Below, piece by piece: positions 3,118-62,168 of a DNA stretch of 64,000 nucleotides. How positions within the stretch are numbered: position 1 is the first letter of the stretch; every line of letters starts with the position of its first letter. The notes under the pieces were generated by a model, which was given only the letters and a program-made list of their open reading frames with translations, did no database searches and was not told where the DNA came from. The position numbers and the translations under genes are program-made. Source of the DNA: Streptococcus pneumoniae. Lineage in GTDB: Bacteria; Bacillota; Bacilli; Lactobacillales; Streptococcaceae. Location: NCBI RefSeq assembly GCF_001096185.1, contig NZ_CRPU01000003.1:62001-126000 (forward strand), given 5' to 3'.

Positions 3118-4867
<1,750 letters not shown>

Positions 4868-9830: not shown

Positions 9831-9838
9831 TATTCGTA
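9831..9838 (-). promoter_or_regulatory. Combox (cin-box), ComX sigma-X promoter
   Basis: The minus strand reads TACGAATA, the exact core recognised by the alternative sigma factor ComX, placed just upstream of comEA. No sigma-A -10 competes with it. Confidence 0.95.
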
Positions 9839-9845
9839 AGAGGAA

Positions 9846-9877
9846 GAAAAAAACAGTCGAAAATTTCTTTTCAACTG
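9846..9877 (-). terminator. Terminator of the GNAT gene
   Basis: Stem CAGTTGAAAA / TTTTCGACTG (one G-T pair), GAAA loop, T7 tail on the minus strand. It insulates the combox promoter from upstream reading. Confidence 0.9.
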
Positions 9878-40484: not shown

Positions 40485-42471
40485 ACATTTGCACAATCTT
40501 GCGATAACTTCTTGAAGTAATCATGAAAATCAGCACATAAGCGATAAGGAAGATAGCGCAGATAGACAAGGTCACGATCAACATCATAGTCGTATCCAGT
40601 ACACCAATCACTTTTAGAATCAGACTAAGCATATGGTAGGCAAAGGCTAGATGTAGGAAGGCAAAGAGCAAAGGAAGGAAGAAAACAGTTAAAACCTGTT
40701 TGTTGATGGTTTGCTTGATTTGCTTTTGATCTAAACCGACTTTCTGCAAGATAATAAAGCGTTCACGGTCTTCATAGCCTTCAGAAATTTGTTTATAGTA
40801 GATGACCAGAACGGTTCCGATCATAAAGATAATGGATAGGAAAATACCGATAAAGAAGACACCACCAAAGAGGGCACTCATCTGAGCACTAGCATCTGAT
40901 AAATTACTACCATAAACATAGCTACCTTCCGTGTTTAATTGAGCATTAAACTGATTGAGGTATTTATCATACTCGTCAGCGACCTTGAGTTGTTCTTCTT
41001 CGCTGGCATTTACATTCATGCCACCGTAAAACTGATTATAGATAGCCGAATCTGGGAATTGATCCAAAAAGGCTTGTAAATCAGGTACAACAAGATAATT
41101 GTAATCAGCAGTCAAAATATTAAACTGATTTGGGACATGGTTGACAATAAAATCTTTATTAAATTCTTCTTTTACAGAAAATTGATAATCATTCAGAGTT
41201 AAAGTTTTCTGTTCTTTAACTCCCTCATTCTTTGCAAAGAGTCCGACCTCATTTCCTGATAGAGACAGTTTTTGACCAGTCATATTTTCATAATCTTTTT
41301 GGTCAAATACCATGAAAACTGTTGTGGGTTGGACACGATTTTGTCCTTTTTCAAAAAGGGTTAACTTATTTCCTTCTTGGTTCGCAACACCGAAGTAAGT
41401 ATAACGAAACACTTCTTTTTCTTTAATCTTATAACCTTTGTCACTTGCAAACTGGCTCAAGAGTTTGTCCAAGTCTTCTTTTTCAACATTTTGCCCTGAA
41501 ACTCCAAAATCATGAGGATTTAGAACTTTTTTAAAGGATTCTGCGGAATTGAAAATGCTTGTCGCTGCTGACATGGTTACCAAAACCATTGTTGACAAGA
41601 TAGCGATGGTTGCTAGCCCAACTGCATTTTTCTTCATACGGAAAATCAAGTTAGACACTGAGATAAGGTTATTTGGTTGGTAATAGTATTTCTTGTTTTT
41701 CTTTAAGATTTGAAGGAAAACGGTAATTCCTGCATTAAACAAGAGATAAGTACCAAAGATAACCAGTAAAACAGCTATGAAGAAGGTTGTTAAGGCTGTA
41801 AGAGGATCTTTTACCGTAAGGGCAAGATAGTAACCAATCCCTAAACTAATGGAACCAAGAATCGTTTGGAGAGGAAGGAAGCGACCTTTTTTCTCACCGC
41901 TAGCTTTCTCACGCGAGAGCTGGAGGGCATTCATACGGGCGATTCGAAGGGCATTCAGGAACATGAGGCCTAGGAAAATCAAACCGAATACAAGAAGTAC
42001 TGCAATGACAACTTTCATCTGGAAGGTAGCGACCAGTTCAACCTTCAATTTCATCAGTTTGAGCAAGAAAGCAAAAATCAACTTGTCAAACAAGGCTCCA
42101 ATACCGATACCTGCTCCAACAGTTAGAATTCCAAATAGCACCAACTCCTTAAAGGTCATACTGATCAGGTGGCGTTTCTCCAAGCCCAGCATGCCATAAA
42201 TTCCCAGTTCCTTGGAACGGTTTTTCATAACAAAACTATTGGCATAGAGGACGATAATGGCTGACGCAAGGGTGACGACAAACATACCAAATCCAAGTGT
42301 AGCTTGAATGGTTGTCCCTCCACGAATTTCCGCAATCTTAGGATTAAAGGTTAGAGAGTAAAAGAGATAGGTGACGGTGACTGCCAAGAGAACAGCCAGC
42401 GCAAAAGGATAGTAGAGTTTGCGGTTTTTAATCAAGTTCGATACCGCTAACTTATTGGTTAATCGAAACAT
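40483..42471 (-). CDS. BceB-type ABC permease (antimicrobial peptide resistance)
   Basis: 662 residues, ten predicted membrane helices with FtsX-like cores and a large extracytoplasmic domain (about residues 310-525) between helices 7 and 8, the Bce-family hallmark. Pneumococcal orthologues (SP_0912, from memory) contribute to bacitracin, nisin and lincomycin resistance. It starts 1 nt after the ATPase gene stop and ends at the bidirectional terminator. No cognate kinase lies next to it; in pneumococcus the controlling two-component system is elsewhere. Confidence 0.92.
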   Translation of the reverse strand: MFRLTNKLAVSNLIKNRKLYYPFALAVLLAVTVTYLFYSLTFNPKIAEIRGGTTIQATLGFGMFVVTLASAIIVLYANSFVMKNRSKELGIYGMLGLEKRHLISMTFKELVLFGILTVGAGIGIGALFDKLIFAFLLKLMKLKVELVATFQMKVVIAVLLVFGLIFLGLMFLNALRIARMNALQLSREKASGEKKGRFLPLQTILGSISLGIGYYLALTVKDPLTALTTFFIAVLLVIFGTYLLFNAGITVFLQILKKNKKYYYQPNNLISVSNLIFRMKKNAVGLATIAILSTMVLVTMSAATSIFNSAESFKKVLNPHDFGVSGQNVEKEDLDKLLSQFASDKGYKIKEKEVFRYTYFGVANQEGNKLTLFEKGQNRVQPTTVFMVFDQKDYENMTGQKLSLSGNEVGLFAKNEGVKEQKTLTLNDYQFSVKEEFNKDFIVNHVPNQFNILTADYNYLVVPDLQAFLDQFPDSAIYNQFYGGMNVNASEEEQLKVADEYDKYLNQFNAQLNTEGSYVYGSNLSDASAQMSALFGGVFFIGIFLSIIFMIGTVLVIYYKQISEGYEDRERFIILQKVGLDQKQIKQTINKQVLTVFFLPLLFAFLHLAFAYHMLSLILKVIGVLDTTMMLIVTLSICAIFLIAYVLIFMITSRSYRKIVQM

Positions 42472-42472
42472 A

Positions 42473-43231
42473 CTAATTCACCTCGCTTGCCATGACAGTC
42501 AAGGTATCAGAGATTTCTTGGAACATCTGACGTTCTGTCTTATCTCCACGGTAGATTTGGTTGTAAAGAATGCCGTCTTTGATAAAGAGTACACGTTTAG
42601 CCCTGCTAGCTGCTGCTGTTGAGTGGGTTACCATGAGAATGGTTTGGCCACGCTCATTGATTTCATCAAAGACATCAAGAAGAGCTGCAGATGACTTGGA
42701 ATCAAGGGCTCCTGTTGGCTCATCCGCAAGGAGAATTTCAGGTTCTGTGATGATGGCGCGTGCTACTGCTACACGCTGTTTCTGCCCACCAGAAATCTCG
42801 TAAGGGTACTTCTCTTGCAATTGGTTGATTCCCAGATTCTCAGCTGTCACCACCAATTTCTTCATCATCTCCGTAATAGGTTTTCTTGACAAGACAAGGG
42901 GAAGCAAGATATTGTCCTTAACAGACAGAGTATCTAGCAAGTTAAAGTCTTGGAAGACAAAGCCTAATTTTTCACGACGGAAGCTAGAGGCCTGTGAATT
43001 TTTAATGGTTGCTGTGTCTGTTCCATTCAGGTAAACCTGACCACGACTTGGTTTATCCAGCATAGCTAGAATATTGAGAAGAGTTGATTTACCAGAACCA
43101 GACTCACCCATGATGGCAACGTAGTCACCCTTTTCGACGGTAAAGTGAATATCCTTGAGGGCCTCTACTTGGTTGCCCTGAAAACGAGTTTTATAAATTT
43201 TTTGAACGTGTTTTACATCTAAAAGTGTCAT
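42473..43231 (-). CDS. BceA-type ABC ATPase
   Basis: 252 residues from the ATG at 43231 behind AAGGAG; the frame stays open 19 codons upstream but that region is the end of a small ORF. Walker [13 protein letters not shown], signature [15 protein letters not shown], Walker [17 protein letters not shown]-loop VTHSTAAAS. MacB/LolD-like ATPase driving the BceB permease that frees lipid II-cycle intermediates from bacitracin-type peptides. Confidence 0.94.
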
Positions 43232-43245
43232 GAGAATCTCCTTTC

Positions 43246-43356
43246 TTAATATCCCATCAAATGAAATGTTTCTTGCATCATAGCGCATCCAAGTTGAACA
43301 CGCTCGATTTCTTTGTGACTTGGTTTTCTAGTTTTCTTCTGTAAGATTTGTTTCAT
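43246..43356 (-). CDS. 36-codon small ORF heading the BceAB-like operon
   Basis: ATG at 43356 has a strong AAAGGAG 7 nt upstream. The peptide is basic at first (MKQILQKKTRKPSHKEIERV) and ends with a Met/hydrophobic stretch (CAMMQETFHLMGY). Its TAA is 14 nt before the ATPase ATG and just upstream of that gene's ribosome site, so translation may be coupled. No family recognised. It may be a leader peptide or a small accessory protein; short length means coding status is unproven. Confidence 0.6.
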   Translation of the reverse strand: MKQILQKKTRKPSHKEIERVQLGCAMMQETFHLMGY

Positions 43357-43385
43357 GATGTTACTCCTTTGTTCTTTATGAGTCT

Positions 43386-43461
43386 AGTTTACATCAAAAA
43401 AAGACCGCTTGCCATAACCTAACCTTACAAAAGAGACTTTAATCTTACATTTTTGTAAGAT
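43386..43461 (-). promoter_or_regulatory. Regulated promoter and palindromic operator of the BceAB-like operon
   Basis: A perfect palindrome ATCTTACA-N4-TGTAAGAT (43442-43461) and a half-site TGTAAGG (43423-43429) lie upstream of TAAACT (-10, 43386-43391), which has no good -35. The layout is like a response-regulator-dependent Bce promoter. Confidence 0.65.
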
Positions 43462-43507
43462 TGGGGGAATGTAGATATTTTATTAGAAATATTTTACTAT
43501 AAAAAGA

Positions 43508-43541
43508 AGGCAAGAAGAAAACCCTTGCAGATACAAGGGTT
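43508..43541 (-). terminator. Terminator-like hairpin after the two-gene module
   Basis: Perfect stem AACCCTTG / CAAGGGTT with a 6-nt loop and TTTTCTTCTT on the minus strand. It could end either the module or the ancestral PspC-gene transcript. Confidence 0.65.
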
Positions 43542-43598
43542 CAAAAATTTTAAAATAGATTAGTCGAATTCATAGACTAACAGTAAAATAACTGTTTC

Positions 43599-43653
43599 TA
43601 CCTCACCAAAACCAGCCTTCATTATCGTCAATAGCTTGGGCTTCTTTGCGTTT
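43599..43653 (-). repeat. 55-bp direct repeat, left copy (duplicate of PspC-gene 3' end)
   Basis: Identical to 46088-46142 except one base (43633 A versus 46122 G). The right copy is the last codons and stop of the PspC-domain gene; the left copy is the same sequence without the rest of the gene. Together they bracket the 2.4-kb module. Confidence 0.92.
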
Positions 43654-43731
43654 CTATTTTAGCATTTAATAGTTATTGACTGATCTAACTAAAAAAAATA
43701 ATTTCGGATAGAAATAAATTATCTTATATAA

Positions 43732-45240
43732 TTATAAATATCCTACACAATTTACACCTATAACTCCTCTTCTTAGGAATATCGTATGAAGTTTCTCATA
43801 CTCAAATTGTTCATATTCAAATCGCTTGTATTCAAACTTCTCATATTCAAACGGTTCGTATTCAAACTTTTCATATTCAAAAACTTCAATTCCTATTTCT
43901 TTTAATACTTCTTCTGGCAACTCGTAATTTTGATCCACTAAACCAAATAGAGTAAATCCTGAATCGACACAAAATGATAGTACTGGATTATATATTGAAG
44001 AGTAAATTACAGAACCAGCTATCGATCCTACAAAACTACCAATCATGTATCCTAGTACAGGAATTTCAATCAGAGATTGGCTCACAGAGCCCATTGATAA
44101 AGCACAAGTTGTCACAAACATTTCTTTTATTAATTCATTAACCATCTCAGCTCTACTCATGTTGCCAGTAGTGACTTGATACGAATTTTTCATTGAATTC
44201 ATCACTAATACAGTCACTGTACCAACTACTGATGGATCAATAGATTTCATTGCACTACCACATAGCCCTGCCTTACAACTTGCTGTAATCGCTGCTGAAA
44301 CTGTACCTCTTACAAATCCTTCGCCTGCACCTGTAATAGCCGCAAATCCTATCTTTTTGAATTGACATTCTTCAATTTCTCCATTTTTAATTAGATAAGC
44401 TATGGCATTCAATACTTCAGGAGCAACTCTTAATGCCATTGATATGGTTGCTGCAGTTAAGCCAGCTTTATACGCATGTCTTAAGATATTGGTATACTTA
44501 ATCAATTCTTCAGTTGTTAAGTGTAAATCCTTAGAATTTACTCCACCCTCTTTAGACAATTTTGCAAGTTCACGTGCTTCCTGTTCCGACAAAGCAATCG
44601 ATTCATTCCCCTTATTATCTTTAACTTTATCACTCAGTAATTTTAGAGTTTCTTCATAGCGATGAACTTGCTCCGGTCGCTTTACAGCTTCTTCTCTTAT
44701 TTTTCGCTCTAAAAACATAGTAGCTTCTTTTAGCTGATCTGATGGAATTACTCTATACTGTCCTTTATAAACTGGATCACTCAAAATTGTATCTGCTGAG
44801 TATCCTCTCTTCTCTAAATATAAATCTAAACTATCTTTTCCACCTTGAGACTTATATTCGCTAAAACGTTGAAAAATGCTCTTAGCTTGTTGTTCTGCAC
44901 TGGATGCTCCATTTTTATAATATTTTAAACCAAATTCAGCATCGAAGTTTATTCCTGTAATATCAGCAGAGCCAAAGTCATGGCTACGATCAACTTGTAC
45001 CCTGTTTTTTGAAGAATTAATAGCTGCATTAATATTAAAAGTCCCAGCATGCCAAAACTCAGCAACATCTCCCTTTAGTGTATCTATACGTGCACCATTA
45101 TATTCAAATTCATTTAGATTATTCACCAACTTCTTTATCTCTGATTCTACAGAGTCTAAATAATGTACACCAGCAGTATGTCCTGCAAAATTACCTGCGT
45201 GCTTTTGAAAGAATTCGTATCCTTCTCTAAAGCTTTCCAT
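43732..45240 (-). CDS. Unknown 502-residue membrane protein with C-terminal FEYEx repeats
   Basis: Not recognised. Visible parts: a soluble N-terminal region (1-120) with EYNGARIDTLKGDVAEFWHA and VDRSHDFGSADI; a charged helical region (120-250); glycine/alanine-rich hydrophobic stretches at about 260-285, 297-350 and 395-415 (ITGAGEGFVRGTVSAAITA, GSFVGSIAGSVIY) that look membrane-inserting; six tandem FEYxx pentapeptides at 454-483; and a short hydrophobic tail. No signal peptide. GGAGGG gives a good ribosome site and the start lies 3 nt after the upstream stop, so the two genes are one unit. AT-rich against its neighbours. A pore-forming effector, toxin or defence protein are possibilities, none proven. 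Confidence 0.8.
   Translation of the reverse strand: MESFREGYEFFQKHAGNFAGHTAGVHYLDSVESEIKKLVNNLNEFEYNGARIDTLKGDVAEFWHAGTFNINAAINSSKNRVQVDRSHDFGSADITGINFDAEFGLKYYKNGASSAEQQAKSIFQRFSEYKSQGGKDSLDLYLEKRGYSADTILSDPVYKGQYRVIPSDQLKEATMFLERKIREEAVKRPEQVHRYEETLKLLSDKVKDNKGNESIALSEQEARELAKLSKEGGVNSKDLHLTTEELIKYTNILRHAYKAGLTAATISMALRVAPEVLNAIAYLIKNGEIEECQFKKIGFAAITGAGEGFVRGTVSAAITASCKAGLCGSAMKSIDPSVVGTVTVLVMNSMKNSYQVTTGNMSRAEMVNELIKEMFVTTCALSMGSVSQSLIEIPVLGYMIGSFVGSIAGSVIYSSIYNPVLSFCVDSGFTLFGLVDQNYELPEEVLKEIGIEVFEYEKFEYEPFEYEKFEYKRFEYEQFEYEKLHTIFLRRGVIGVNCVGYL
43792..43881 (-). repeat. In-frame 15-bp tandem repeat (six FEYxx units)
   Basis: Six 15-bp units within the 502-residue ORF encode FEYEK, FEYEP, FEYEK, FEYKR, FEYEQ and FEYEK. 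DNA units differ at up to five positions while the FEY core is kept. Confidence 0.92.
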
Positions 45241-45243
45241 TCA

Positions 45244-45900
45244 TTATCCCTCCAAGAACTCAGATAATCCATCCATATATAGTATAGCTGTCAAACCTCT
45301 GTATTGTTGATCCATGATTTTCTCTTTATCAGTTCCTGTAAGAAATTGAGTAACACCTAGCACTGCACCAGTAGCTAATGTAATCCCAGGAGCCAAAAAA
45401 CCTAGTAGTGCACCTCCTGCTATCAAAGCTGCTTTATTTCCACCAACGACATCATTAACTGCATCTAAAGCTTGCTCTGGAAGTGATTTTGAAAATTCTA
45501 TCTTTTCAAAGTCAGACTTATATCCACGACAAAAATCAACAAATTCATCATAAGTTTCTGGTTGACTAATAACTTCTGATACTAGCATCATCCCACGTTT
45601 TCCTAACCAACCATATTTCATTCCATATTTTTCAAATTTTATGTTCATGCTTGATATTTCATTCTTACTTGATTGATTGTCGCCAATAAAGAGTACATGT
45701 TGTTCAGAGGTTAAAGTTGCCATATTAGCTAGATAGTCCTTTTCGAGCCATACAGCTACTTCAATCGCACCATCTTTTGTGCCAACAATTAAATTATCTT
45801 CATCATCATTTGTACTTACAAGTTGACGTAAATAATTACCGTATCCATGAGTTTTATCATCGCAAACAATAATCAATTTTGTAACATTTTGTCCAAACAT
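45244..45900 (-). CDS. Unknown 218-residue protein, first gene of the two-gene module
   Basis: Not recognised. I start at the ATG at 45900 (GGAG 7 nt upstream); the open frame continues 42 codons upstream into the promoter region. Residues 1-150 look like a cytosolic alpha/beta domain (VTKLIIVCDDKTHGYGNYL, QHVLFIGDNQSSK). Residues 157-187 form a Gly/Ala-rich hydrophobic hairpin (AALIAGGALLGFLAPGITLA..), and the last 30 are soluble. No signal peptide. It has its own TTGTCA/TATAAT promoter. Size and hydrophobic hairpin resemble effector or immunity subunits of two-gene conflict systems, but this is inference. Confidence 0.78.
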   Translation of the reverse strand: MFGQNVTKLIIVCDDKTHGYGNYLRQLVSTNDDEDNLIVGTKDGAIEVAVWLEKDYLANMATLTSEQHVLFIGDNQSSKNEISSMNIKFEKYGMKYGWLGKRGMMLVSEVISQPETYDEFVDFCRGYKSDFEKIEFSKSLPEQALDAVNDVVGGNKAALIAGGALLGFLAPGITLATGAVLGVTQFLTGTDKEKIMDQQYRGLTAILYMDGLSEFLEG

Positions 45901-46009
45901 AAAGTTTCTCCATTTTTTTCTAAAATTTATAATTTTTTCTTCTTGATAAGTTTCATAATAGAATGTATAACATGTCCTACAATATCCATTAAAATAGTTT
46001 CGTGCGCTT

Positions 46010-46039
46010 ATTATACCATTTAGCAATGTATGTTGACAA
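46010..46039 (-). promoter_or_regulatory. Promoter of the two-gene module
   Basis: Minus strand TTGTCA (46034-46039), 18-bp spacer, TATAAT (46010-46015) with TG extension. It lies inside the inserted DNA, about 100 nt ahead of the first start codon. Confidence 0.8.
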
Positions 46040-46087
46040 GATGAAAAAAGCCTTGTCTTATATAATACAAAGCTTATTTCATTATTT

Positions 46088-46142
46088 TACCTCACCAAAA
46101 CCAGCCTTCATTATCGTCAATGGCTTGGGCTTCTTTGCGTTT
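46088..46142 (-). repeat. 55-bp direct repeat, right copy
   Basis: Contains the 3' end and stop codon of the PspC-domain gene. Partner of 43599-43653. Confidence 0.92.
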
Positions 46143-46364
46143 ACGTGGGCCTGTTCCGTACATTTCTGCTTCGATTTCTTCCTTGGTTGGCATGACAGAA
46201 GCTAGGATGATATAGATAATCACGCCAAGTCCAAAGTTTGCGACTGTAAAAATGGCAAACAGAAAACGAACAAGGGTAACATCAAAGTTCCACTTGTCTG
46301 ACAAACCTGCCAGAACTCCTGAAATCATACGATTTCGTCTCATTTTATAAAATTTACTGTTCAT
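46092..46364 (-). CDS. PspC-domain small membrane protein
   Basis: 90 residues from the ATG at 46364 (AGAGGAA site). PspC domain (MRRNRMISGVLAGLSDKWNFDVTLVR with AGLSDKW helix, one long membrane segment VANFGLGVIIYIILASV). PspC-domain proteins are linked to the phage-shock/envelope-stress response; this is not the choline-binding PspC adhesin. Its last 17 codons are duplicated 2.4 kb away, so the neighbouring insertion used this gene's 3' end. Confidence 0.9.
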   Translation of the reverse strand: MNSKFYKMRRNRMISGVLAGLSDKWNFDVTLVRFLFAIFTVANFGLGVIIYIILASVMPTKEEIEAEMYGTGPRKRKEAQAIDDNEGWFW

Positions 46365-46422
46365 GATATTTCCTCTTTCTGCTAGGTTAGACATAGTATA
46401 TCACGGGTAGGCTCGGCTTTCA

Positions 46423-46872
46423 TCAGTCCTCAGGCTGATTTATCAGTAGCAATTTACCTCGACAAAGTCCACAGCGATAGCGTTTGGTATCAATCCTACG
46501 CTTGCGATGATACCTTTGCTGGCAGGATTGGCAACGATAGAGATTGAGTGGTTTGGAGTTACTATTTGGCAAGGTTGGTACAAAGCGTAATCCATCCACT
46601 GCTTTCAACAGTTCCTTAAAATCCCTATCCTTGTGTTGATAGCCCTTCCCTTGAAAATAGAGGTGATAATGACAGAGTTCATGGCGGACAATTTTCCTAA
46701 AAACGTCTAAACCGAGTTCCTGATAAACCTTGGGATTAAAATCCAAATGCCCATCTTTGGGGAAAAATCGCCCACCTGTCGAACGTAGACGAGAATTCCA
46801 CTGAGCTTGATGGATAAAAGGTCTGCCGAAGTCTTTTAGTGAAACCTGCTTGACGTAATCAGTCAGTTTCAT
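46423..46872 (-). CDS. SprT-like zinc metalloprotease-domain protein
   Basis: 149 residues from an ATG inside the end of tex (14-nt overlap). HExxH-type motif in [16 protein letters not shown] and a C-terminal zinc ribbon CQSCQQRY...CGLCRGK. SprT/Spartan-like family; role in bacteria not established. No Shine-Dalgarno of its own, so translation is probably coupled to tex. Confidence 0.88.
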
Positions 46873-48988
46873 TTGGAGCGAGGAGCGACAGATTGACTTT
46901 TTCACGTTCAGTATCAATTTTCTTGACCCAAACGGTCACCAAATCTCCGACTGACACCACTTGGCTTGGGTGTTTGATAAATTTGCGACTCATATGGGAA
47001 ATATGAATCAAGCCGTCCTCATGAATCCCAATGTCAACGAAGGCACCAAAGTCAACGACATTACGCACCACACCCTCTAGCTTCTGACCAACCACTAAAT
47101 CCTTGATGTCTAGGACATCTTGGCGAAGCACAGGTGCGTCAAAGGAATCACGGAAATCTCGACCTGGCTTGAGAAGGTCGGCAATGATATCTTTAAGGGT
47201 TTCTGGACCAAGGTCTAGCTCTTGCGCCATTCCCTTGACTGAAAGCGACTTGAGTTTGCCTTGGGCTTCTTCGTTTAGGTCTTTAATGTCCAAACGTTTG
47301 AAGAGTTCCTTAACGGCAGTGTAATTTTCTGGGTGAACTCCTGTATTATCAAGGATATTGCTACTTTCAGGGATGCGAAGGAAACCAGCTGCCTGTTCAA
47401 AGGCCTTGGCACCCAGACGCGGAACTTTCTTGATTTGGGCGCGTGAAGTGATTTTTCCTTCTTCCTCACGGTATTTGACGATATTTTCAGAGATGGTTTT
47501 ATTGAGTCCAGCTACGTGTGAAAGAAGAGCTGGGCTGGCCGTATTGACATTGACACCGACTTGGTTAACTACCGTATCCACGACAAAATCCAGACTTTCA
47601 GACAGTTTCTTCTGGCTGACATCGTGCTGGTACTGACCGACACCAATTGACTTAGGATCGATTTTGACCAATTCAGCAAGAGGATCTTGTAAACGACGGG
47701 CGATAGAAATAGCAGAGCGTTTTTCAACGGTCAAGTCTGGAAATTCCTGACGAGCTAATTCACTAGCAGAATAGACAGAAGCACCACTTTCATTGACGAT
47801 AACATAGCTGACTTCTAGAAAATCTTTAAGAACTTCCGCCACGAAGGCTTCACTTTCACGACTAGCAGTACCATTTCCGATGGCAATAATCTCTACACCG
47901 TATTGACCAATCAAATCTGCCAAATCTTTCTTGGCTTCTTCGATTTGACGAGCTGTTGCTGGTTTGACAGGATAAATGACCTGAGTTGTCAGCATTTTCC
48001 CAGTTGCATCCACGACAGCTAGCTTGGCACCTGTACGAAAGGCAGGGTCAAATCCAAGAACCACGCGCCCTTTCAGAGGAGCAACCAAGAGCAGATTGCG
48101 CAGATTGTCAGAAAAGAGTTGGATAGCCCCTTCTTCTGCTTTTTCAGTCAATTCTGTTCGAATACGGCGCTCGATAGCTGGCAAAACTTTTTTCTTAACA
48201 GATTGCTGAACAACTTCATCAATATAGGTATTTTTTACCTTGAAACGAGCAGCAAAGAATGCAAGAATACGGTCCGTTGCATGTTCAAAACCGACCTTCA
48301 AGACACCTAGCTTCTCCCCACGATTGAGGGCTAAGGTACGATACCCCTGCATATTTCCAACTGTCTCTGAAAAATCATAATAAATCTGAAAAACCTGTTT
48401 TTCATCAAGACTTTCATCCTTGACTTGGGAAGTGAGTTTAGAGTGTCTCAGCACTTCCTGATAAGTCATGGAACGCAAGGTCACATCTTCCGATAAGGCT
48501 TCGACCAAGATATCAACTGCACCAGCCAAGGCTTCCTTACCAGTCGCAAATCCTTCACAGACAAACTTCTCAGCCTCTTTCTCTAAGTCGGCTACATTCT
48601 GCAAAATCAGGCGAGCAAGTGGGAAGAGTCCGGCTTCACGGGCAATAGTTGCCTTGGTTCGACGTTTTTCCTTGTATGGAAGATAGAGTTCTTCTACGTC
48701 TGCTAGTTTTTCGGCAGCTAAGATAGCTTCTTCCAACTCCTTGGTCAGCTTACCTTGCTCTTGAATCTTAGCTAAAACAGCTTCCTTGCGGTCATTGAGA
48801 TTGGTCAGACTTTTATCCAAGTCGATAATGGCCTTAATTGCCACCTCATCCAAACTACCAGTCATGTCCTTGCGATAACGCGCGATAAAAGGAATAGTCG
48901 CCCCTTCAGCTGTCAAACTTAGAACGGTATCAATTTGCTTTAACGTCACTCCCAAATCTTGGGAGATTTTTTCATATTTTTTATCCAT
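46859..48988 (-). CDS. tex: Tex, S1-domain RNA-binding transcription accessory protein
   Basis: 709 residues from the ATG at 48988. Tex N-terminal helical domain, YqgF-like RNase-H fold ([19 protein letters not shown]), helix-hairpin-helix ([20 protein letters not shown]) and a C-terminal S1 domain ([20 protein letters not shown]). Binds nucleic acid and affects transcription; named for toxin expression in Bordetella. A TATAAT box lies only 6 nt before this ATG, so the mRNA may be leaderless; a longer frame start 21 codons upstream would precede that promoter. Confidence 0.94.
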
Positions 48989-51722: not shown

Positions 51723-53510
51723 TTAAATATAATTTTTTACATTTTCCAAGAGCTTAAAAAAATCATTTATAAAAGTTTTTTCAAATTCGTCATACTTTTG
51801 AGGATTCTCTCGTAACATTTTAGCGTTAAAATGTTTATAAGTATTTCTATTTATCTTTCCTACTAGTTTCTTATCAACATAAATTTGTATACCATCATTA
51901 TTTATATTTCCATAAGTATCACCCGATATATAAATAGAATTTGATTTATTATTTCGGGAATAGATATTTAAGCCTTGTCCTTTCCCTTGTGTTAATCTAA
52001 CAACATTATATTCATTAGCTATTTTTATAAAATCTAATGAAATTGACATTTCGCGTTCTTCCTTATTCTCTTTTCCAAAATACTCTGGTTTTGAAAGGTC
52101 GAAATGATTAGTATTAACCAGTGTATTAAATAATTTACGAATAACGAACTGAACATCTTCATTCGGTGAATGATTTTGAGTTGATGTTTTATCTATATCT
52201 AAGTTTCCAGTTGAAATTGTACTTGAAGAACTCATTTTTTTCATCAAATTCTCGAACTCTTCAACTTCTAATTTATCAACATTATATCTAAGTAATAATT
52301 TCAAAGTATTAAAAAATTTTCTGAAAGATTCTAATTCCTTTTGGTTTTTAAAACTAAAGATACCATAACGAAATACAAGAGAATTATAATCAGCATCATC
52401 AGGTATTTCAAATGAATTTTCAAGTAAATCAATAAGAAAATATTTGGTTTCTTCCGAATCTTCTGGACTATTGTTATATGAAGTTAATAAATAGTCATAA
52501 GCTTCATTAAAGCGTAATTGAAAACATACTGTAGATATGATTAGTAATTTATCATCATTGTCTAACTCATTATTTGGATTTATAATATGCATCAAGAGAC
52601 TAACAGAATTGAATAATCTGTTAATACTGCGAGGATTATTTCCTATTGAATCTCTAATTAATTGAGTTATATTCTTTGTAACATCATTATCAAAAGAAAA
52701 ATTAATTTTTTTCAAAGATACATTAACAAAGTTCTCCATATGATAATTTGCTACCGGTACAGTAAAAGGTACTTGAATTATTTTCTCAAAAAAAGCTTTT
52801 CCTTTTTCATTGTCCAAATCATCACCATACTTACTTTTTGTTCCTCTTAAAACAACATTATAATCAATAGCTAAAACAAAGACACAATTTCTACAATCTA
52901 AGAAAAGTTTTAAAATTTCTAGGAATTCAATCGCTTTTTGAGGGAATAATCTGTCAAGGTCATCTATGAAAATTACTATCTTTTCATAATTATTTTCTTT
53001 GACAGACTCATCAATCATATTTTGTAGATTTTGTTTTAGATTTTTTAGGTTATTAGATTTCTCTTCATTGCTTATAAATTTTAGAAGTTGATTATTAATT
53101 TTTTCAATATTTAAGAGACCAAAATCTAGTTTAAGATATTCCATACTTTTTGTAATAACTGCCAAAGATTTTTTTAAGTTTTCTATTTTATTTACATCAG
53201 TTACTTCTAATTCATCAATTAAATCTGTGATTAACGTGACTGCTAAATTCTTATCCATATCAAATTGTGAATATTGCCAAGTATTAAAAAAGATTGTTTT
53301 AATTTTTCCTTTTGAATTATTGAAAGAATTTTCTTTAAGTTTTTCCTCGACCTGATACATAATACTAGTTTTTCCAGTTCCCCAATCACCTTGAATAGCC
53401 AGTGTTAAAGGAGTCTCACATCCTGAAATAAAATTTGATAATCCAATAATATATTCGTCAATCTTAAATTCATCTTTTACTGTTGGAACATCTGAAAATG
53501 AATTGTACAT
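51723..53510 (-). CDS. KAP-family P-loop NTPase
   Basis: 595 residues from the ATG at 53510, with AAAGGA 6 nt upstream (the TTG five codons earlier is part of the leader). KAP-type Walker A GDWGTGKTS (residues 41-48) and Walker B KIVIFIDDLDRL (178-187). No obvious membrane helices interrupt the ATPase as in many KAP proteins. The C-terminal 250 residues are unrecognised and very Asn/Lys-rich. The gene is strongly AT-rich beside core genes, a mark of transfer. KAP NTPases occur in several anti-phage systems, so a single-gene defence role is plausible but unproven. Confidence 0.85.
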   Translation of the reverse strand: MYNSFSDVPTVKDEFKIDEYIIGLSNFISGCETPLTLAIQGDWGTGKTSIMYQVEEKLKENSFNNSKGKIKTIFFNTWQYSQFDMDKNLAVTLITDLIDELEVTDVNKIENLKKSLAVITKSMEYLKLDFGLLNIEKINNQLLKFISNEEKSNNLKNLKQNLQNMIDESVKENNYEKIVIFIDDLDRLFPQKAIEFLEILKLFLDCRNCVFVLAIDYNVVLRGTKSKYGDDLDNEKGKAFFEKIIQVPFTVPVANYHMENFVNVSLKKINFSFDNDVTKNITQLIRDSIGNNPRSINRLFNSVSLLMHIINPNNELDNDDKLLIISTVCFQLRFNEAYDYLLTSYNNSPEDSEETKYFLIDLLENSFEIPDDADYNSLVFRYGIFSFKNQKELESFRKFFNTLKLLLRYNVDKLEVEEFENLMKKMSSSSTISTGNLDIDKTSTQNHSPNEDVQFVIRKLFNTLVNTNHFDLSKPEYFGKENKEEREMSISLDFIKIANEYNVVRLTQGKGQGLNIYSRNNKSNSIYISGDTYGNINNDGIQIYVDKKLVGKINRNTYKHFNAKMLRENPQKYDEFEKTFINDFFKLLENVKNYI

Positions 53511-53602
53511 ATAATTTCCTTTCAAAATATTTTATTTATAGTTTATTAAATTTAGAATAACATTCAATTTATTTTGTGTTAATGACATTAAATTTTAAGG
53601 TT

Positions 53603-62000: not shown

Positions 62001-62168
62001 ATATTTTTTTGTAACCTCTAGAAAGTCAAAAGCACCATAAAGATTGTCAATATCCATCATAGCCAAATGGGTGTAGCCGTATTCTTTAGCTGCTCTCACA
62101 TACTTTTCGATCGAAATGATGCTTTCCATAAAACTATAGACTGTTTTTGTATCTAGTTGTGCGATCAA
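59067..62168 (-). CDS. dnaE: DNA polymerase III alpha subunit DnaE
   Basis: 1033 residues from a TTG start at 62168, with GAGGAG about 9 nt upstream; this matches the known length and N-terminus (IAQLDTKTVYSFMESI). PHP domain first (YTHLAMMDIDNLYGAFDF, degenerate metal ligands), then polymerase palm with the catalytic aspartates in TMPDIDIDIPDIYR, FINGERS/thumb (MGRGSAVGSLVSYALDITG) and a C-terminal OB fold (DVTLFSDLYRQVG). In Gram-positives DnaE extends RNA primers before PolC takes over. An extended -10 TATAAT is at 62199-62204. Confidence 0.96.
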   Translation of the reverse strand: MIAQLDTKTVYSFMESIISIEKYVRAAKEYGYTHLAMMDIDNLYGAFDFLEVTKKYGIHPLLGLEMTVFVDAQEVNLRFLALSSVGYQQLMKLSTAKMQGEKTWSVLSQYLEDIAVIVPYFDGLELLELGCDYYIGVYPETLASEFHRSILPLYRVNAFESRDREVLQVLTAIRENLPLREVPLRSRQDVLISASSLEKLFQERFPQALDNLEKLISGISYDLDTSLKLPRFNPARPAVEELRERAELGLAQKGLTSKEYQERLDQELAVIHDMGFDDYFLVVWDLLRFGRSNGYYMGMGRGSAVGSLVSYALDITGIDPVEKNLIFERFLNRERYTMPDIDIDIPDIYRPDFIRYVGNKYGSKHAAQIVTFSTFGAKQALRDVLKRFGVPEYELSAITKKISFRDNLKSAYEGNLQFRQQINSKLEYQKAFEIACKIEGYPRQTSVHAAGVVISDQDLTNYIPLKHGDEIPLTQYDAHGVEASGLLKMDFLGLRNLTFVQKMQELLAETEGIYLKIEEIDLEDNDTLALFASGNTKGIFQFEQPGAIRLLKRVQPVCFEDVVATTSLNRPGASDYINNFVARKHGQEEVTVLDPALEDILAPTYGIMLYQEQVMQVAQRFAGFSLGKADILRRAMGKKDASAMHEMRASFIQGSLEAGHTAEKAEQVFDVMEKFAGYGFNRSHAYAYSALAFQLAYFKTHYPAIFYQIMLNSANSDYLIDALEAGFEVAPLSINTIPYHDKITNKAIYLGLKSIKGVSNDLALWILENRPYSNIEDFIAKLPENYLKLPLLEPLVKVGLFDSFEINRQKVFNNLVNLFEFVKELGSLFGDTIYSWQESEDWTDQEKFYMEQELLGIGVSKHPLQAIVNKAIYPITPIGNLSENSYAIILVEVQKIKVIRTKKGENMAFLQVDDSKKKLDVTLFSDLYRQVGQEIKEGAFYYIKGKIQSRDGRLQMIAQEIREAVAERFWIQVKNHESDQEISRILDQYKGPIPVIIRYEEEQKTIVSPHHFVAKSNELEAKLNEIVMKTIYR

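Follow-up and report, generated by a model that had tools for sequence, protein, structure and literature searches.

The described systems closest to the locus reported here come from the PADLOC profile collection, in which PDC-M09 is a two-gene candidate with components PDC-M09A and PDC-M09B. The exact term PDC-M09 was not found in the literature, broader searches listed mostly unrelated papers, and PDC-S candidates are listed in Streptococcus thermophilus (PMC11514479, in the portion available). WYL regulators, which recur beside the genes studied here, have been tied to phage defence (PMC4012209, in excerpt), and 48% of the BrxR-family WYL homologues identified in another study sit with known phage defence systems (PMC9122601, likewise in excerpt). 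Here we analyse two adjacent genes, A and B, in a 64,000-nucleotide stretch of Streptococcus pneumoniae DNA (assembly GCF_001096185.1, contig NZ_CRPU01000003.1, forward-strand positions 62,001 to 126,000; hereafter the window). We propose, with a probability of about 0.5, that A-B is a two-gene cassette which spreads horizontally, protects its host from phages or other incoming DNA and forms a sister type of PDC-M09. Defence had been put forward in an earlier note made from the sequence of the window; it is still the likeliest role, at about even odds, and is supported by the operon, its conservation, mobility and selection, its genomic company and the relation of B to PDC-M09B, all observed here.

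Both genes lie on the minus strand and are separated by 3 nt, in keeping with the tight coupling noted earlier. The genes and the segments of their products are as follows.
45244-45900, minus strand: gene A, 218 residues
43732-45240, minus strand: gene B, 502 residues
A, residues ~1-130: alpha/beta-like domain with a conserved YGWLG at its end
A, residues ~148-183: Gly/Ala hydrophobic segment, peaking at 1.5-1.9 over residues 165-183
A, after the hydrophobic segment: conserved C-terminal segment
B, residues ~20-180: nuclease-like N-terminal domain with E61, D93 and K106
B, residues ~245-430: Gly/Ala-rich helical region
B, residues ~454-483: array of six FEYEK-like pentads

Twenty distinct A-B loci were collected after merging of duplicates (the window, L007-L011, L012 together with L067 and L068, L013, L014, L064, L065, L066, L069, L070, L092, L093, L094, L096, L097 and L098). 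They come from streptococci, other Lactobacillales, Clostridia, plasmids, one complete phage genome and IMG/VR contigs; by search, genome contigs gave 8, two viral-contig searches 6 and 4, phages one record and plasmids two records. All 20 have A immediately upstream of B, with only the C-terminal part of A present at the contig end in L013. The system is rare and patchy: 6 of 147 genomes of relatives had a match, counting the window's own and one remote PDC-M09B-type protein, and a draw across the phylum gave 5 of 398, namely the window's own genome and four with remote B-like proteins.

The relation to PDC-M09 lies in B, which matches the PDC-M09B profile of PADLOC over residues 33-413 (E 4.6e-12, 43 bits); of 13 homologues of B, 10 match the profile, and this is the best E value among them. 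The earlier description of the pair as the best candidate for an undescribed system cannot be kept as it stood, B being a distant relative of a PADLOC candidate. In PD-(D/E)XK nucleases the family motif places Glu, Asp and Lys in order, and variants of the acidic residue of (D/E)xK are known. When 14 chosen N-terminal domains from B, PDC-M09B and other B-like proteins (13-47% identical to the first) were aligned, the only invariant columns were a G, an E, a D and a K (G70, E74, D106 and K117 in the reference), and the E...D...xxK order in the N-terminal domain of B is a PD-(D/E)XK-like pattern. Assignment to this fold by profile was not significant and is retained as motif evidence. On this motif the N-terminal domain is a predicted PD-(D/E)XK-type nuclease, a more specific lead than the membrane effector suggested earlier. 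Membrane insertion turned out to be marginal, each protein having a single 19-residue peak of ~1.5-1.9 on the Kyte-Doolittle scale; the middle of B is Gly/Ala-rich with borderline hydropathy, peaking at 1.67 over residues 390-408. The sole Pfam match of B, UBA_HOIP, was discarded as spurious (0.1 bit above the cut-off, no stretch passing alone, 3/13 members).

The C-terminus is among the most conserved parts of B. About 40 residues follow a five-residue rhythm of FEYEK-like units and lead into FLRRGVIGV, ending in the conserved RRGVIGV. Tail length is constant in all 13 aligned proteins; L070 and L096, the phage-type copies, have other residues in place of the aromatic ones and lack one residue. 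A slippage-prone, phase-variable tail was considered and rejected, the tail columns of the 13 aligned B proteins having no internal gaps and L070 and L096 differing by one residue. Sequence comparison with solved structures brought up no counterpart of the tail (best E 0.7).

These features bear on the idea that B is an exported interbacterial or contact-dependent toxin, with A as the partner that protects against it or aids its export. In its favour, the hydrophobic segments differ between alleles, and near A-B on the Butyrivibrio plasmid pCY186 (L097) a second B-like protein has an apparent signal sequence and a long coiled coil. In B itself, however, no signal peptide can be read, as the earlier note had stated, and profiles show no secretion-system domain; B is also the downstream gene. 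Polymorphic toxins vary at the C-terminus, unlike the highly conserved end of B. We regard a toxin of this kind as quite improbable. The second B-like protein of pCY186 (L097, 10823-12715) lacks the tail; its N-terminus reads as a signal sequence and is followed by the coiled-coil stretch.

The product of A was named by no profile library searched. Against PADLOC it gave weak, scattered matches, the best to PDC-S01 (E 0.01 in two members). Residues ~53-113 weakly resemble ribosomal protein uS2 (E 0.017 in PDB, 0.14 in NCBIfam, and 0.11 in Pfam in 1 of 12 proteins); hhalign gave E 0.0045 with a probability of 7.8% for uS2 and 0.3-0.4% for TIR and Mrr. Homology to uS2 is not significant, and this weak similarity at most suggests a Rossmann/flavodoxin-like fold. 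A TIR-like fold was likewise dropped, the hhalign comparison with the TIR_2 set being not significant.

The pair has moved between hosts. Taking the Tex protein for comparison, identity to the window is 97% in S. pseudopneumoniae, 95% in Streptococcus sp. HMSC034E03, 94% in S. infantis and 77% in S. suis, whereas for B it is 91% in S. suis, 88% in S. infantis, 79-81% in S. pseudopneumoniae and 73-75% in Streptococcus sp. HMSC034E03. The most distant host thus has the closest B, which argues for horizontal movement of A-B. The Tex identities also suggest a mitis-group origin for the window. Both genes are under purifying selection, the ratio of nonsynonymous to synonymous substitution rates (dN/dS) being 0.13-0.27 in 9 of 10 gene comparisons and saturated in the tenth; in each of the five pairs, A had a higher dN than B. 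A sliding comparison of five streptococcal copies (window, L007, L008, L009 and L014) revealed mosaic alleles. The hydrophobic segment of A (residues ~120-190, window ~45330-45540) occurs as diverged alleles between conserved ends, and residues ~300-395 of B (window 44055-44340) likewise, swapped as blocks; a third allele occurs in L009 at B ~110-210. The alleles of A and B are not strictly coupled among these copies. On a Peptoclostridium plasmid (L098, 7998-10818), an IS3 element splits B, and the pair is therefore dispensable there.

Of the 20 loci, 5 have defence genes no more than a few kb away, a raw count given without a background rate. A type III restriction-modification (R-M) system is adjacent in L007 and an NgoFVII-type restriction enzyme with HNH in L066; a complete PDC-M09 pair adjoins L093. 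By annotation, the complete genome of phage NatCom_9287 (L096) has a restriction endonuclease and two methyltransferases, and L098 has two DUF262 genes nearby. WYL regulators identified by Pfam stand directly upstream of A in 3 of the 20 (L064, L011 and L093). In L010, a truncated open reading frame reads like a WYL regulator, by reading only. A B-like gene in another genome (G200; L088, 3113-8398) lies beside what reads as a dynamin-like GTPase and coiled-coil membrane genes.

The same surroundings bear on a second alternative, a stress-response or toxin-antitoxin type module that serves host stress or its own persistence and is akin to the operons in which B-like genes accompany TerB. The L090 protein, which has the Gly/Ala-rich region of B, adjoins a TerB gene (PF05099, E 1.2e-8) with a WYL gene near, and the tight coupling of two genes suits a toxin-antitoxin pair. 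The antitoxin of such pairs is usually small and often DNA-binding; A has no profile match of the small DNA-binding antitoxin type, and the Ter-like cousins lack both the tail and an A partner. R-M and phage company is better suited to defence, and we consider a stress or toxin-antitoxin module unlikely.

The defence reading is drawn from several observations taken together: the 20/20 adjacency, patchiness, horizontal spread, purifying dN/dS, the PDC-M09B match and the R-M and WYL company, to which the invariant G/E/D/K nuclease pattern and the diverged alleles of the hydrophobic segments in the five streptococcal copies are added. A number of results weigh against it. None of 12 A proteins matches PDC-M09A at E<=1, when two true M09A proteins used as controls score 2e-105 and 3.8e-112, and the 43 bits of B are low beside the ~590-608 of true PDC-M09B members. 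In the nuclease-like domain, the aligned members have G, S or Q two positions ahead of the Lys and never D or E (Q in PDC-M09B and L012), and L069, outside the chosen 14, is without the Glu segment. No significant nuclease profile was found for this domain (NucS_C, E 0.2 in 1 of 14), it has no match in PDB, and its hhalign comparison with Mrr_cat was not significant. No defence neighbour was recognised in 15 of the 20 loci, few of whose neighbours were profile-scanned, and no phage assay of A-B was found.

If A-B is a defence cassette, we infer the following course of events, in which the protein folds, the nuclease activity, the location at the membrane, the trigger and the outcome are all predicted. 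A, with its putative alpha/beta, Rossmann-like domain and hydrophobic segment, would sense infection or restrain B. B would be the effector, combining the predicted PD-(D/E)XK-type nuclease domain with the Gly/Ala-rich helical region and possibly associated with the membrane, and its conserved C-terminal tail may contact A or the trigger. Upon infection B would cut DNA, either that of the phage or the host's own in an abortive infection, perhaps at the membrane. A bolder proposal, which we hold only tentatively and think rather doubtful, is that a tethered PD-(D/E)XK-type nuclease is under the control of an A-type sensor by way of the fixed six-pentad tail and RRGVIGV, with recombinational swapping of the hydrophobic segments of A and B changing the trigger; A-B would then be an undescribed two-component immune system, joined with PDC-M09 in a superfamily that combines a Gly/Ala-rich nuclease scaffold with different sensors.

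In the window, the pair lies in an insert next to a PspC-domain gene (pspC), with the following further features.
43596-43653, minus strand: downstream repeat copy, the 58-bp pspC 3' end, continuous with the native downstream chromosome
43654-46084, no strand: DNA absent from the empty site; L017, L020 and L021 align continuously across the site
46010-46039, minus strand: promoter-like site TTGTCA-18-TATAAT ahead of A
46085-46142, minus strand: upstream repeat copy, made up of the true pspC 3' end and a further 7 nt
46092-46394, minus strand: host PspC-domain gene, the 3' end of which is the insertion site (PF04024, E 3.3e-19)

A direct repeat of 58 bp flanks A and B, with 56/58 positions identical between the copies; the near-identical 55-bp copies described earlier are its core (43599-43653 and 46088-46142, 54/55 identical). 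The empty site contains a single 58-bp copy, since the flanks overlap in an unbroken alignment in three close genomes of the same genus (L017, L020 and L021); the more diverged L023 and L029 have the same layout with a flank overlap of 52 bp. The earlier note had expected an empty site to show one copy, and close relatives bear this out. The downstream copy runs into sequence common to the empty sites and the upstream copy into insert sequence. Because the flanks are continuous in the empty sites and the two copies run into native and insert sequence, respectively, the insert in the window amounts to 2,489 bp with one repeat copy included. Two pspC matches occur only in the window's genome (345-base pspC query, matches in 39 of 117 genomes), and so do two repeat matches (42-base repeat pattern with <=3 mismatches, 9 of 68 genomes matching).

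Some of what had been said of the insert needed qualification. Its AT-richness is real (33% GC vs 40% for the window), but 14 of 308 sliding windows are equally low or lower. The promoter attributed to the pair is present as TTGTCA-18-TATAAT with a TG, matching at 11/12 positions (46039-46010), and it ranks best among the 11 sites found; the motif statistics are weak, and the motif alone proves little because 13.4 sites are expected in shuffled sequence. A matching TTGTCA...TATAAT also precedes A in S. pseudopneumoniae. No integrase is encoded in the insert, as had been reported, A and B being its only long open reading frames; the remaining genome was not searched for integrases. Within 42000-47000, there was no Rfam match to a structured RNA at gathering scores. 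Some kb off the insert, a 600-residue open reading frame (51723-53525) reads as a KAP-type P-loop NTPase.

How the repeat arose is a separate question. A small two-gene cassette had been thought to have integrated at the 3' end of a gene that was rebuilt in the process; horizontal acquisition and the single-copy empty site bear this out in part, and integration as the cause does not follow. When 17 A-B loci were searched for flanking repeats within 6 kb, or less where contigs end, the 55-bp gene-end repeat was found in the window only, with none of this kind at the 16 others and no flanking repeat >17 bp at 14 of the 17. L064, in genome G068, has a 23-bp exact direct repeat (4101-4123 and 9837-9859), located inside a 77-bp hairpin-like match of 74% and enclosing a block of IS3, B, A and the WYL gene, and L097 has a 150-bp intergenic repeat of 78% identity. 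Both resemble dispersed hairpin or intergenic repeats and were not accepted as gene-end repeats. The empty site of L064 was sought in 59 genomes, of which 8 match, its own included, with no near-identical neighbour that resolves the site. S. pseudopneumoniae (L014) likewise carries A-B between pspC and the ABC-transporter gene, preceded by a similar promoter, and lacks a second repeat.

Site-specific integration at the pspC 3' end would make the 58-bp repeat attL and attR, with the integrase acting in trans. It agrees with the exact rebuilding of the gene end, with the empty sites holding one copy and with the other cargo that the pspC-ABC interval holds in relatives; against it, two copies are present in no other genome of the 117 or the 68, and the S. 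pseudopneumoniae pair sits at the same place without the repeat. Searches of 50,697 phage records with the 3'-end core gave only short matches (best E 0.4), and an exact search of viral contigs with a 29-base degenerate pattern of the core was negative; these null searches count against integration and gave no sign of the core as a phage att site. The term 'PspC domain' was absent from the matches listed in a literature search on the PspC-domain gene as an attachment site in streptococci. We rate integration in trans as a real possibility of less than even standing.

The repeat may instead be a scar that natural transformation left through one-sided recombination, in which a homologous crossover upstream in pspC was combined with an illegitimate join downstream in the recipient's pspC 3' end, so that the last 55-58 bp of the recipient pspC were left as a duplicate. 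No integrase is necessary for such an event, which would account for a repeat in one genome and for the repeat-free copy in S. pseudopneumoniae. Mitis-group streptococci are naturally competent, a further point in its favour. So are the merodiploids that transformation yields in pneumococcus (PMC3784515, in excerpt). Against it, the join has no clear microhomology, the donor sequence was not found, and a duplicate at a gene end would be a coincidence. Integration in trans and a transformation join both fit the data; we lean slightly to the transformation join, to which we give an evenly balanced chance.

The interval itself is variable. The pair had been taken to occupy a fixed site, yet just two of the 20 loci, the window and L014, have it at the pspC site; the others, where the contig shows it, lie elsewhere, for example beside R-M genes or downstream of what reads as rpsI. 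Nineteen pspC regions out of the 38 other matching genomes were surveyed, a twentieth (G068) having been fetched for its A-B locus. No open reading frame of >=50 residues separates pspC from the ABC gene in 10/19 regions, small ones (54-189 residues) fill the interval in 5/19, and an ABC ATPase with a DUF1430-type protein does so in 2/19; in one region the interval is taken up by three genes, among them an AAA ATPase, and in one the ABC gene is missing at that place. The interval is therefore a cargo-collecting site, though A-B is there in only the two loci named. Cargo profiles were run for L053 and L055 only. The three-gene cassette (L053, 416-3959, genome G060) encodes proteins of 562 and 240 residues and a 373-residue AAA ATPase with weak IetA/DolB matches, and is possibly another defence cassette.

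Compared with known systems, A-B stands nearest to PDC-M09. B is distantly homologous to PDC-M09B over most of its length, and the two have the E...D...xxK pattern, a DQ motif and a Gly/Ala-rich region in common, as well as the two-gene layout with B downstream (true pairs for comparison: L087 and L093). The systems differ in that A has no PDC-M09A match and in that the pentad array and RRGVIGV of B replace the PDC-M09B C-terminus. A-B may act in the manner of a PDC-M09-type candidate; because the A partner fails the PDC-M09A test, it is not counted as a PDC-M09 member, and PADLOC's two-gene rule would presumably not call it as one. Viral contigs scanned with a PDC-M09B protein yielded no relative. 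The TerB-associated operons (L089 and L090, the latter with TerB and WYL genes near) share the Gly/Ala-rich region of B and differ in having other N-terminal regions, no A and no tail; an HNH reading of the L090 N-terminal region, made by eye, was dropped after Pfam found nothing at E<=0.05. With PD-(D/E)XK nucleases such as Mrr_cat and NucS, the aligned N-terminal domains have in common that Glu, Asp and Lys are invariant and follow in that order; they carry G, S or Q in place of the acidic residue of (D/E)xK, and no profile match is significant. For A, the likeness to the uS2 fold is weak and non-significant. An integrative element bounded by attL and attR would likewise have direct repeats and a single-copy empty site, both present here; the insert has no integrase gene. 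A-B is thus a conserved mobile two-gene system of streptococci, Clostridia, plasmids and phages that is only partly covered by the catalogues searched and is not matched as a pair by the PADLOC profiles. If it is defensive, it offers a compact test case for the acquisition of defence genes in commensal streptococci, and one scaffold would link PDC-M09, the TerB-associated operons and A-B.

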